DNA of 64,000 nucleotides from Microbacterium sp. Root61 (lineage in GTDB: Bacteria; Actinomycetota; Actinomycetes; Actinomycetales; Microbacteriaceae), in the NCBI RefSeq assembly GCF_001427525.1, contig NZ_LMGU01000001.1, forward strand, positions 310,001 through 374,000, written 5' to 3'. Below, one piece after another: positions 60,319-64,000 of this stretch. Each line of letters begins with the position of its first letter. Position 1 is the first letter of the stretch. The notes below the pieces were generated by a model. The model was given only the letters and a program-made list of their open reading frames with translations. It was not told the origin of the DNA and did no database searches. The translations under genes were made by a program, and so were the position numbers.

Positions 60319-60394
60319 GGGCCTGTGGCGCAGTTGGTAGCGCACCTGCATGGCATGCAGGGGGTCAGGGGTTCGAATCCCCTCAGGTCCACCA
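60319..60394 (+). tRNA. tRNA-Ala (anticodon GGC)
   Basis: A full cloverleaf: acceptor GGGCCTG/CAGGTCC with the G3:U70 pair that defines alanine identity, D arm GCGC/GCGC, anticodon stem CCTGC/GCAGG around ATGGCAT, T arm AGGGG/CCCCT. Anticodon GGC reads GCC/GCU. CCA (60392-60394) is encoded. It borders an accessory region, a common integration point. Confidence 0.96.
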
Positions 60395-60395
60395 G

Positions 60396-60420
60396 AAACC
60401 CCCGGTTCGCCGGGGGTTTT
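60396..60420 (+). terminator. Terminator after tRNA-Ala
   Basis: AAACCCCCGG and CCGGGGGTTT form a 10-bp stem with a TTCG tetraloop followed by TT, two bases after the CCA end. Confidence 0.92.
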
Positions 60421-60652
60421 TCGTTTCCCGCCGACGGTGACGGTAGGCGCGCAACGCCCGTGGATAAACGAGGGAATTGCACCAGCTGTTGGGCTTTAGC
60501 GGCGCGCTCCCTCACGGAACATCGGGGGAGTCCACCGCTTCTGTGGTGTTGTCCCCGCTGAGGGATCCCTCGTGCGCGGCGCGTGTCCAACCGCGCCCTG
60601 CGGTGAGCTGCGTGCACTGTGCCGGGCGGCGGGGCGGGTGTACGTTGCAACC
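60421..60652 (+). other. Non-coding start of the accessory region
   Basis: About 230 bases between the tRNA-Ala terminator and the first candidate gene of the accessory region. I see no gene, no integrase remnant and no copy of the tRNA 3' end here. TACGTT at 60641-60646, six bases before GTG 60653, could be a -10. Confidence 0.5.
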
Positions 60653-60859
60653 GTGGATGGATCGCCCTCCGCATCAAACTTGAACCCCGAGTCATTTGAA
60701 CGCATGACACCGTTGCGCGATGCCGGCACGGGCACAGGACAGCAAGAACCCAGGAGATCTCAGTTCGCGGAGTTCCGAACTCCATCGAAACGAGGACGGC
60801 GGTATCGCCCAAGCACTGCAACGGTGGCCAATTGCCGAGCAATTGTTGATGAGGCCTAG
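60653..60859 (+). CDS. Possible small protein ahead of the CHAT gene
   Basis: A 68-residue candidate (VDGSPSASNLNPESFERM to VANCRAIVDEA), Arg/Ser/Thr-rich, no family recognised. For: GTG 60653 follows TACGTT by six bases, the leaderless pattern seen in this window, and its TAG stop lies 13 bases before the CHAT gene's TTG with AAGGAG between. Against: unremarkable composition and short length. The same stretch is alternatively read as the N-terminus of the CHAT protein in another frame. Confidence 0.35.
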   Translation: MDGSPSASNLNPESFERMTPLRDAGTGTGQQEPRRSQFAEFRTPSKRGRRYRPSTATVANCRAIVDEA

Positions 60860-60872
60860 CGAAGGAGACGAC

Positions 60873-63731
60873 TTGTCCGACGTCCCTGACGGAGCGCAGT
60901 TGATCGGCCTGATCGATGACGCCGTCGATCTCGTGGCGGCGGCGCGAGCCACCGGCGATCGTGTGTCCCTTGCGACGGCGATCCACAACCTCGAAGTCGC
61001 ACGGCGTACAGCGCCGGGCGTGTTGATGGATACGGTGCTCGTGAATCTCGGGATGGCGTTGAACACCAGGTTTGAGATGGATGGAAATATCGCCGACCTG
61101 TCCGAGGCCGTCGTGGTCTCTCGCGACGCTGTCAAACTCACACCGGTCGCGGACCCTCGCCGCGCCGGTCGCGTCTCGAATCTTGGCGTGGCTCTCAAGT
61201 GGCGCTACGAATTCGGGGGAGGCGAGCTGGCAGACCTGCAGGAGTCGATCGCCTGTCAGCGAGAAGCGGCTGAACTCACAGCCCAGAAAGATCCCGAACG
61301 CTCGAAGTTCGCCACGAATCTTGCCAACACTCTACTCATGCGATTTGGGCACACGGCGGCCGCCCCCGATCTCGATGAGTCCATCGGCTGGTTTGAGGCG
61401 GCGCTGGCCGCAACACCAGTGACTCACCCACGTCTCGCGCGGCGGCGCGCGAACCTGGCTAATGCGCTGAGCTCACGGTACGACCTCCTCGGTGCCCGCA
61501 CGGATCTCGATGCCGCTGTCTCCCTTCTTCAGCAGGCGGTTGCGGCGACGGCTCCGAACGATCCTGCGCTCGCGGCCGACCTGTCCAACTTGGGCAACGC
61601 ATTCTTGTCTGATTACGAGCGGACAGGAAGCTATGCGAGCCTCGACACGGCGGTCCTTCACCTAGAAGGATCAATTGCAAGGACAGCGCGCAACGATCCG
61701 CAACTGCCGCATCGTCTTTCGAATCTCGCCTCAGCTCTCAGTGCCCGTGGCAGTTTGACTTCGTCCCTCGCTGACTTCGACGCGGCGATCTCAGCGACCG
61801 ATCGAGCGCTGGGCTCGCTGACCGACGATCAGCCGGCTTTTGCGCGCGTGTTTTTCAACTTTGGGTCGCTTCTCAGGTCGCGTTTCAGCGTCAGCGGCGA
61901 CCTCATAGACCTAGACGCCGCGATCGAGTACATGCATGCGGCCATCAGCGCCCTGCCGCCCGCCGCGCCATTACTCTGCGTTGTTCGGACAACGTTGGGG
62001 AAGGCGATCGAGGACCGCGCCGAGATCACTGGATCCCAAACTGATCTGGGCTCAGCACTGACGGAGTATCTGGCAGCCATGCGGGTGGATACGGCGGCCC
62101 CGATGGATCGGTGTGTCGCAGCGATGAGGGCGGCCGCCCTGTCGACCGCCCAGGATGCCTCCGCCTGCTATGCGGAGGCCATCACGCTCCTCCCTTCCGT
62201 CCTCCAGCCCTGGCTCGATCGAACCGACACACTGGCGCGCGTCGCGGCGCTCAGCGGACTCGGCATGAATGCCGCCGCGGCGTACCTCGCGACTGACCAG
62301 CCGCGACAGGCGCTGTCGGCTGTGGAGCACGGACGGGCTCTCACCCTCAGCGGGCTCATTCAGCTTCGTGGTGACTTCGACAAGCTCCAAACTGCACATC
62401 CAGAGACGGCAGATCGCCTGAGTGCGCTGCTGAAGGTGCTGAATGCTCCGCGAAAACTACGCGCCGCAGACGCTGCACGGGACCTCTCGGCACAGGAGAA
62501 CAGTCGACGCCGTGAGGCGCAATCCCAACTCACGCCTGTCCTCGAGCGGATCCGAACTCAGCCAGGTTTTGAGCAGTTCTTCTTGCCTCCCGACCCTGAC
62601 CAACTGGTCGCAGGTGGGCGGGAGGGGCCGATCGTAGTCGTGAATGTCGCGCGCACGCGTTGTGACGCACTCGTGGTCAATGACGGCGATGTGGACGTGG
62701 TCGAGCTCAAGGACCTCACAGCTGCTGACTGTGCAGACGCGGCCATGGCCCTGCTCAGTGCTACCGATCAGCTATTTGCCCCAGATGTACCCGATAAGGC
62801 GTTCGCCGCGGCAGAGGCAGACCTCATCCGCCTACTTGCTTGGGCGTGGGACCGGATCGCCGATCCCGTTCTGACACACCTCGGGTTCTCTGCACCGAGA
62901 TCGGATAGCGAGTATGGCGCCTGGCCTCGCATCTGGTGGGTTCCGACCGGTCCCCTCACGGTCTTCCCGATGCATGCGGCCGGGTATCACTCTGCCAGTA
63001 ATGCCGGGGAGCCGGCGCGCGAGCGGACGGTAATGGATCGTGTCGTCTCAAGCACTGTGCCTTCGATCAGTGCGCTCCTTCACGCTCGGACGCGGCCTCT
63101 CGCCGACCTTCAACCGCGCGCTCTTCTGCTGGCGATGCCGACCACCCCTGGGCTCCCCGAACTCGAAAGTGTGATTGACGAAGTGGAGCGTGTGGCACGG
63201 CTGATCCCACGCGCAGACGTCACGATGATTGGGGTCGATCCATCTCAGCAAACCGGCGAGCCTTCGCGGCGAACCGTGCTCGGGCTACTCCCGACGCACG
63301 CGTGGACGCACTTCGCGTGTCACGGCGAGGCGAACCCCACCGACCCGGCAAAGTCAAACCTCGTCCTCGCCGATCACCAGAGTGACCCGCTGACGGTCGA
63401 GGACATCGTCGGGCTGAAACTGGAGCAGGCACAACTCGCATACTTCTCCGCGTGCACTACCGCGCGCCCGGGTCGCAAGGTGCTCGATGAACCCGTCCAC
63501 TTCGCTGCGGCGGCCCTTCTCGCTGGTTATCGGCACGCCATCGGCACATTGTGGCCGATCCCCGATCGTCCCCATTCTGCCGAGACTATTTACCGGATCC
63601 TGTCCTCGGATGGATTCGACTGGACGGCGGCCTCAGCTGCAGTTGCGGTTCACACTGCAGTGCATGGAGAGCGCCGAGCCTTCCCAGACCAACCCCAATA
63701 TTGGGCTGCACTCCTGCATCAAGGCCCGTAG
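60873..63731 (+). CDS. TPR-CHAT caspase-like protease
   Basis: About 952 residues. Residues about 10-480 are tandem helical TPR-like repeats (pattern LSNLGNAL-SRY-TG-DLD). A linker follows, then a CHAT peptidase domain (about 590-950), with the catalytic pair His817 (THFACHGEA) and Cys861 (AYFSACTTARPG). CHAT proteins are separase/caspase relatives; in TPR-CHAT systems the repeats sense a partner and unleash proteolysis. I chose TTG 60873 for AAGGAG six bases upstream; ATG 60720 would add 51 residues without TPR character. Many A/T-ending codons and the tRNA-Ala flank suggest acquisition. Confidence 0.88.
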   Translation: MSDVPDGAQLIGLIDDAVDLVAAARATGDRVSLATAIHNLEVARRTAPGVLMDTVLVNLGMALNTRFEMDGNIADLSEAVVVSRDAVKLTPVADPRRAGRVSNLGVALKWRYEFGGGELADLQESIACQREAAELTAQKDPERSKFATNLANTLLMRFGHTAAAPDLDESIGWFEAALAATPVTHPRLARRRANLANALSSRYDLLGARTDLDAAVSLLQQAVAATAPNDPALAADLSNLGNAFLSDYERTGSYASLDTAVLHLEGSIARTARNDPQLPHRLSNLASALSARGSLTSSLADFDAAISATDRALGSLTDDQPAFARVFFNFGSLLRSRFSVSGDLIDLDAAIEYMHAAISALPPAAPLLCVVRTTLGKAIEDRAEITGSQTDLGSALTEYLAAMRVDTAAPMDRCVAAMRAAALSTAQDASACYAEAITLLPSVLQPWLDRTDTLARVAALSGLGMNAAAAYLATDQPRQALSAVEHGRALTLSGLIQLRGDFDKLQTAHPETADRLSALLKVLNAPRKLRAADAARDLSAQENSRRREAQSQLTPVLERIRTQPGFEQFFLPPDPDQLVAGGREGPIVVVNVARTRCDALVVNDGDVDVVELKDLTAADCADAAMALLSATDQLFAPDVPDKAFAAAEADLIRLLAWAWDRIADPVLTHLGFSAPRSDSEYGAWPRIWWVPTGPLTVFPMHAAGYHSASNAGEPARERTVMDRVVSSTVPSISALLHARTRPLADLQPRALLLAMPTTPGLPELESVIDEVERVARLIPRADVTMIGVDPSQQTGEPSRRTVLGLLPTHAWTHFACHGEANPTDPAKSNLVLADHQSDPLTVEDIVGLKLEQAQLAYFSACTTARPGRKVLDEPVHFAAAALLAGYRHAIGTLWPIPDRPHSAETIYRILSSDGFDWTAASAAVAVHTAVHGERRAFPDQPQYWAALLHQGP

Positions 63732-63927
63732 GGACAGACGGAACGATCCTGCGGGCGCGAAAACCACCACGGGACGGGCGGCGCGGCCATCAGAGCACGC
63801 CGGTGCTGACCGTTCCCCGCTTGCGGCTCGGTGCCAACCCCGACATCGCGCAACATCGGTGCGCTCTCATCACCTGATGGACGACCGCCCTCTGGCGCGG
63901 GTGCGGTGTGGATGCTATTTGTATTCC

Positions 63928-64000
63928 ATGTCACGCATCATCGGTGTGCACGGAATGGGCGCGCAACAGGTCGGCAGCGACCAGCTATCAGCGGACTGGC
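63928..64000 (+). CDS. Probable alpha/beta-hydrolase-type partner of CHAT, truncated
   Basis: An ATG at 63928 opens a frame to the window end, about 24 residues (MSRIIGVHGMGAQQVGSDQL...). The strand-then-HGxG pattern followed by Gln and a Trp is the start seen in alpha/beta-hydrolase-like proteins encoded beside CHAT genes in actinobacteria. CTATTT lies seven bases upstream as a possible -10. It follows the CHAT gene by about 196 bases on the same strand. Too short for certainty; its role as effector is inference. Confidence 0.5.
   Translation, partial: MSRIIGVHGMGAQQVGSDQLSADW

Follow-up and report, generated by a model that had tools for sequence, protein, structure and literature searches.

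A tRNA-Ala islet of Microbacterium sp. Root61 carrying a TPR-CHAT protease gene and an apparently reduced hydrolase-caspase conflict module

The window analysed here is a stretch of 64,000 nucleotides of Microbacterium sp. Root61 (contig NZ_LMGU01000001.1, positions 310,001 to 374,000; G000:C1:310001-374000), whose right end carries a tRNA-Ala (GGC) gene, a gene for a TPR-CHAT protease and the start of an alpha/beta-hydrolase gene. Together with a caspase-like gene beyond the window end, the two protein-coding genes make up a small tRNA islet, which on sequence comparison is best read as a TPR-CHAT gene followed by a reduced form of the hydrolase-caspase conflict module already predicted. An initial annotation of the window had proposed that the CHAT protease and the hydrolase form a protease-activated effector module; it misjudged the hydrolase's partner and missed both the caspase gene and a repeat of the tRNA end because the window stops at position 64000. 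All coordinates are given in window numbering. The sequence past the window end comes from a fetched stretch (L004) corresponding to 60001-80000, and this extension, which the initial annotation had suggested, yielded the complete hydrolase gene, the caspase-like gene and the repeat.

The TPR-CHAT protease gene (60720..63731, + strand) follows the tRNA gene (60319..60394, +; ARAGORN), as initially annotated, and is intact, its longest open reading frame (ORF) encoding 1003 aa. The start first assigned to it, which gives a protein of 952 residues, is one candidate among several that include a protein-database prediction of 960 aa (P0113) and extend up to 1003 aa. For the CHAT domain (PF12770, residues 705-1002) the score is 119.9 bits, with the cut-off at 24, and one TPR family lies just above its cut-off (27.9 vs. 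27.5). The catalytic residues reported as His817 and Cys861 of the 952-aa form, which correspond to H868 and C912 in the 1003-aa numbering, are kept in 120/120 aligned CHAT domains, the protein's own record included. The domain retains 72 of the 78 family-conserved positions, the 25th lowest value among the 120. A second TPR-CHAT gene, encoding 826 aa, is located outside the islet in the same genome (G000:C1:3203518-3205998; L005 7519-9999).

The alpha/beta-hydrolase gene (63928-64788, + strand; L004 3928-4788) has its first 73 bases (63928..64000) inside the window. Its start, MSRIIGVHGMGAQQ at 63928, lies 196 bp past the CHAT stop, in line with the same-strand hydrolase start first recognised about 200 bases downstream, and the ORF remains intact beyond the window end, encoding 286 aa (P0001; 303 aa in the database prediction P0003). 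The nucleophile elbow GHSLGS contains S170, which together with D234 and H267 is identical across the 49 rows of an alignment (A1) made of the window protein and 48 of the 109 matches that a protein search returned at 1e-3, the window's own included; the catalytic Asp would be D231 or D234. The family comprises 80 further proteins at E <= 1.3e-20, which are 32-54% identical, the few named ones being actinobacterial. Among solved structures, no sequence match to the hydrolase profile was found at E <= 0.01, and phage records gave no hydrolase match at 1e-5. Relatives of the hydrolase, with 23-39% identity, are encoded on 11 viral-labelled contigs (L201-L211).

The caspase-like gene (64785-66191; L004 4785-6191) lies wholly past the window end and overlaps the hydrolase gene by 4 bp. 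Its 468-aa product (P0002) matches the caspase family PF00656 with 26.2 bits (cut-off 21.4) and keeps the caspase dyad H91/C149, and it has neither a STAND NTPase (Walker A/B) nor a C-terminal WD40 part. At the position of the NTPase, about 250-280 residues are missing in an in-frame gap between domains. After this position, G319, G321, P323, W328, H381, Y433 and H441 are identical in 25/25 rows of a caspase alignment (A2), consisting of the window protein and 24 relatives hand-picked from the loci described below. The remaining parts of the protein fold confidently in AlphaFold2 (AF2); a VIA-align comparison of the model has rows covering residues 4-254, with 255-468 barely covered. No VMAP family was detected in a Pfam scan of P0002, and the tblastn matches listed at loose settings for the interval from the caspase stop to the right repeat included only chance-level pieces of WD40.

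Exactly these three genes lie between the two copies of a direct repeat that comprises the 3' end and terminator of the tRNA gene. The attL-like copy is at 60361..60442 (+), and an imperfect 82-nt copy, the attR-like one, was found 3' of the caspase gene at 66420-66500 (L004 6420-6500), past the window end; the two match at 85% over 68 nt without gaps and at 86.6% over 82 columns with a gap. With the tRNA gene as its left border, the islet measures about 6 kb, and leaves no room between the repeats for a further integrase-sized gene. At third codon positions, the G+C content (GC3) of the islet genes amounts to 0.69, 0.71 and 0.72, versus 0.80-0.90 in four upstream ORFs, which agrees with the excess of A/T-ending codons noted initially; two ORFs farther downstream in core order have values of 0.79 and 0.90.

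The empty site is found in related genomes. In G405 and G327, the tRNA-Ala gene is followed by a VOC gene after about 104 and 113 bp, respectively; in the genome of the window this gene lies 11.9 kb 3' of the tRNA, and past it both relatives share most of the gene order. The repeat bounds the first 6 kb of this 11.9-kb interval. The comparison examined 20 of 22 same-genus relatives, with the VOC gene after the tRNA within the fetched stretch in 5/20; the remaining 15 loci have a different gene order or a fetched stretch that leaves the order unseen. The tRNA and VOC genes are 654 bp, 3.1 kb and 13.2 kb apart in three further same-genus genomes (G412, G404 and G410, respectively), and such differing distances indicate that the insertion site is variable. 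The 13.2-kb insert of G410, which holds metabolic genes (TerC, ABC1-kinase, hydrolase and PPDK-type genes), was rejected as the same event because it carries no tRNA-end repeat, and is taken as a different one. In 17 other same-genus genomes of an order-level sample, no CHAT match, no caspase match and one remote hydrolase match were obtained. Insertion at the tRNA 3' end, the direct repeat and the empty site in relatives, though not an integrase of its own, characterise the islet, which is best read as horizontally acquired DNA inserted in the tRNA-Ala 3' end. From the right repeat to the VOC gene there are a further ~6 kb of ORFs (66516-72271; L004 6516-12271), judged by eye to be small membrane, lipoprotein-like and acetyltransferase-like; as no third repeat copy was found, this segment is regarded as another insertion or older content.

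Across genomes, the conserved partner of the hydrolase is the caspase and not the CHAT protein. Profile searches of the ORFs in the top 80 among 261 confirmed stretches from a contig scan, a set that includes near-copies (many from Amycolatopsis and Streptomyces), found a caspase within 1 kb of the hydrolase in 74 loci: downstream on the same strand in 55, on the opposite strand in 15 and upstream on the same strand in 4. Five of the other six loci are without a caspase and one has it farther off; L136 has just 208 bp upstream, and L108 has 3.2 kb downstream. CHAT occurs within 2 kb of the hydrolase in a single locus of the 80 (L099), as a frame-broken remnant of the C-terminal part only, spread over two frames, and about 9 kb away in L137. 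As a control, 20 loci of close CHAT relatives were hand-picked among high-scoring places, some with little flank on one side owing to contig ends; a class search with matches in 44/374 genomes supplied 18 of these places, from 17 genomes, and an order search with matches in 12/396 supplied the rest, from two genomes. None of the 20 contained the hydrolase, and the caspase profile matched nothing in them; some hold a second CHAT. Ten ORFs located 5' of the hydrolase in relatives had no family in common, with any Pfam match in 3/10.

The form of the caspase varies among these loci. Among the downstream caspase ORFs, 34 of 55 encode 1,378-1,858 aa, and in six relatives' caspase proteins that were scanned, WD40 was present in five and NTPase-type families in four. 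The best-matching relatives of P0002 have this caspase-STAND-WD40 layout, with the same hydrolase family upstream. A search for relatives of the short caspase, covering the best 8000 word-match candidates and proteins of 0.55-1.75 times its length, returned P0002 alone, and no other complete short caspase of the same layout was seen among the loci, with L137, L138, L142 and L167 left ambiguous. In Bradyrhizobium (L138 10827-14936), a 317-aa caspase ORF is followed by a 1048-aa ORF, which may be two genes or one frameshifted gene. The opposite-strand arrangement (L143, L145, L148, L151, L153-L156, L159, L160, L162, L164, L172, L174 and L177) comprises 15 loci, 12 of them from Amycolatopsis; the one scanned (L148) has a TPR match, and with L175 the 15 form a separate group in the hydrolase tree. 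An actinomycetotal metagenome-assembled genome (palsa_505; L102 3535-4983) encodes a caspase joined to a Cpn60 chaperonin-like domain, downstream of a gene of this hydrolase family. A hydrolase and a WD40 gene with caspase similarity are also encoded on a Rhodococcus ruber megaplasmid (pmega_1; L212 5244-24772), where the neighbours are integrase, recombinase, HTH, PIN, transposase and SIR2 genes.

One hydrolase family can thus be tracked across caspases fused to STAND-WD40, VMAP, TPR and, once, a chaperonin-like part. On this pattern, the hydrolase and caspase seem to form a constant core, whereas the sensor seems to be exchangeable. In a tree of 81 hydrolase sequences, whose bootstrap had not settled, the window hydrolase stands beside ten loci, six of which carry the STAND label (88/76; 97/86 for the ten together), and the short caspase form therefore looks derived. 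These labels were set by hand: STAND denotes any caspase neighbour outside the other groups, which need not carry the NTPase; VMAP denotes seven cyanobacterial loci, one of which was scanned; and divTPR denotes the opposite-strand loci, likewise with one (L148) scanned.

The pair resembles arrangements predicted for bacterial conflict systems. According to Kaur et al. (2020, PMC7159879), the caspase of VMAP systems always comes with a neighbouring alpha/beta-hydrolase gene, and the two may act together; the same authors count such a hydrolase among the effectors of GAP1-N1 systems and discuss APAF-1-like STAND-WD40 sensing. A link between caspases and STAND NTPases is made by Kaur et al. (2021, PMC8195603). 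As in the pair described in 2020, the islet caspase domain is encoded next to an alpha/beta-hydrolase, here with overlapping genes, and the catalytic residues are intact in both enzymes. The VMAP ternary systems (MoxR-vWA) are represented by the seven cyanobacterial loci, which share the hydrolase family and have a shorter caspase protein; L106, the sole one scanned, contains VMAP-M14 and VMAP-C. However, the islet has three genes only (no MoxR/vWA) and its caspase is without VMAP-M/VMAP-C, whereas the scanned actinobacterial relatives have the caspase fused to NTPase and WD40 instead, and the islet does not belong to this class. The caspase-STAND-WD40 type (APAF-1-like, bacterial NLR-like) has the layout of P0002's best-matching relatives, but P0002 has lost the NTPase and WD40 end and falls outside it. 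In the Canu system (PMC12799240), a MALT1-like caspase activates a pro-nuclease; the two-enzyme logic of a caspase beside a dormant enzyme is similar, but the islet partner is an alpha/beta-hydrolase and not an MBL-fold nuclease, which sets the islet apart. The best NCBIfam match of P0002 is the EACC1-caspase model of Kaur et al. (2020) (NF047832 caspase_w_EACC1), with 50.7 bits; this is below the cut-off of 140, and the upstream islet gene encodes the hydrolase rather than EACC1, so the islet is no member of that group either.

On these comparisons, there is somewhat better than an even chance that the islet is an acquired, caspase-gated module with a phospholipase-like hydrolase, of the kind predicted by Kaur et al. 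(2020), in a reduced state that is either rewired to the TPR-CHAT protease or decaying. The hydrolase-caspase pair is best explained as the functional core, of the type found in bacterial conflict systems, which are predicted to serve in suicide or immunity. In the relatives, the one-chain caspase-STAND-WD40 protein could operate like a one-piece apoptosome: the WD40 sensor would bind an infection signal, the STAND NTPase would then oligomerise the protein, and the clustered caspase would turn active and cleave or release the neighbouring hydrolase. This presumed phospholipase-like serine esterase would in turn harm the membrane, and the cell would stop growing or die; a specific substrate and any role in phage defence are to be presumed in the same conditional way. 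As the NTPase and WD40 are gone in the islet and both catalytic centres are kept, activation of the islet pair would have to come from elsewhere. The TPR-CHAT protease, whose gene immediately precedes the pair, is the nearest candidate activator; failing that, the hydrolase and caspase would be silent. That TPR-CHAT took over sensing in trans, with the caspase thereby losing its in-chain STAND-WD40 part, is unlikely.

Several observations weigh against a working caspase-gated module. The islet caspase keeps 29/39 conserved positions where a residue is present, with 26 more absent, the lowest of the 25 rows. The hydrolase keeps 58/65 family-conserved positions (5th lowest of 49), has Phe in place of R59, which is present in 92% of hydrolases, and sits on a long branch (0.96); the branch and the conservation rank suggest that it may be decaying. 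Its match to a known fold is informative about the fold only and not about the substrate. When the caspase profile was run on 20 loci that hold more distant relatives of the hydrolase (order sample), it matched in seven (L066, L068, L069, L075, L080, L083 and L085), and no title or abstract in a literature search that left most subscription journals outside either tests the hydrolase-caspase pair or describes the short islet. The most serious rival is that an integrating element brought a full hydrolase and caspase-STAND-WD40 system whose sensor, switch and integrase have since been lost, leaving an inert pair beside an unrelated CHAT neighbour. This is a real but lesser possibility, to which the missing sensor and NTPase, the low conservation of the caspase, the seemingly unique short form, its derived place in the hydrolase tree, the lack of an integrase-sized gene and the CHAT remnant that adjoins a hydrolase-caspase pair in L099 lend weight. 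However, all three ORFs are free of stops and frameshifts, the loss in the caspase is in frame and between domains, the catalytic residues are retained, the remaining parts fold confidently, and the seven positions after the NTPase are invariant. Open frames, an in-frame inter-domain loss and kept catalytic residues are points for function, and the islet genes are probably functional in some form.

The arrangement proposed by the initial annotation, in which CHAT activates the hydrolase directly and the caspase is incidental, draws on the adjacency of two same-strand genes with an intact protease dyad and an intact hydrolase triad. G150 (L069) may offer a further instance: its CHAT gene (PF12770, 181.7 bits) adjoins an opposite-strand 1027-aa ORF that matches the hydrolase profile in its C-terminal part; this ORF also has a weak caspase-profile match and no Pfam family. 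It is nonetheless a very unlikely explanation, in view of the absence of the hydrolase from the CHAT loci, the single, broken CHAT among the hydrolase loci and the prevalence of the caspase as companion, and a conserved CHAT-hydrolase pair is rejected on these counts, the first of which the initial annotation had itself named as refuting evidence. What stands of that proposal is acquired DNA at a tRNA gene with a protease beside a hydrolase that is likely under protease control; CHAT as the partner does not. The suggested connection to the CRISPR-linked type III-E protease (Craspase) is highly improbable. Csx29 likewise combines TPR with a CHAT protease bearing a His/Cys dyad, but the islet protein reaches 30.3 bits against the NF041237 cut-off of 300. 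A simple exact-repeat scan detected no CRISPR-like array in the window, where none had been reported, in the next 16 kb or in the 20 related CHAT loci, and this link, like membership of the Craspase group, was rejected.

The reading of the islet as a reduced hydrolase-caspase module extends a prediction of 2020 in which the pairing stood mainly next to VMAP proteins. If the TPR-CHAT protein did replace the sensor, the islet would encode a two-protease relay, from TPR-CHAT to caspase, firing a phospholipase-like effector, that is, a bacterial initiator-executioner cascade in a three-gene, 6-kb mobile islet. The short form offers a compact natural test, with a switchless and sensorless caspase beside its proposed effector and another protease. 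A working short form would open the caspase-to-hydrolase step to study in the absence of the large NTPase, and a dead one would show the loss of a predicted suicide system following transfer.

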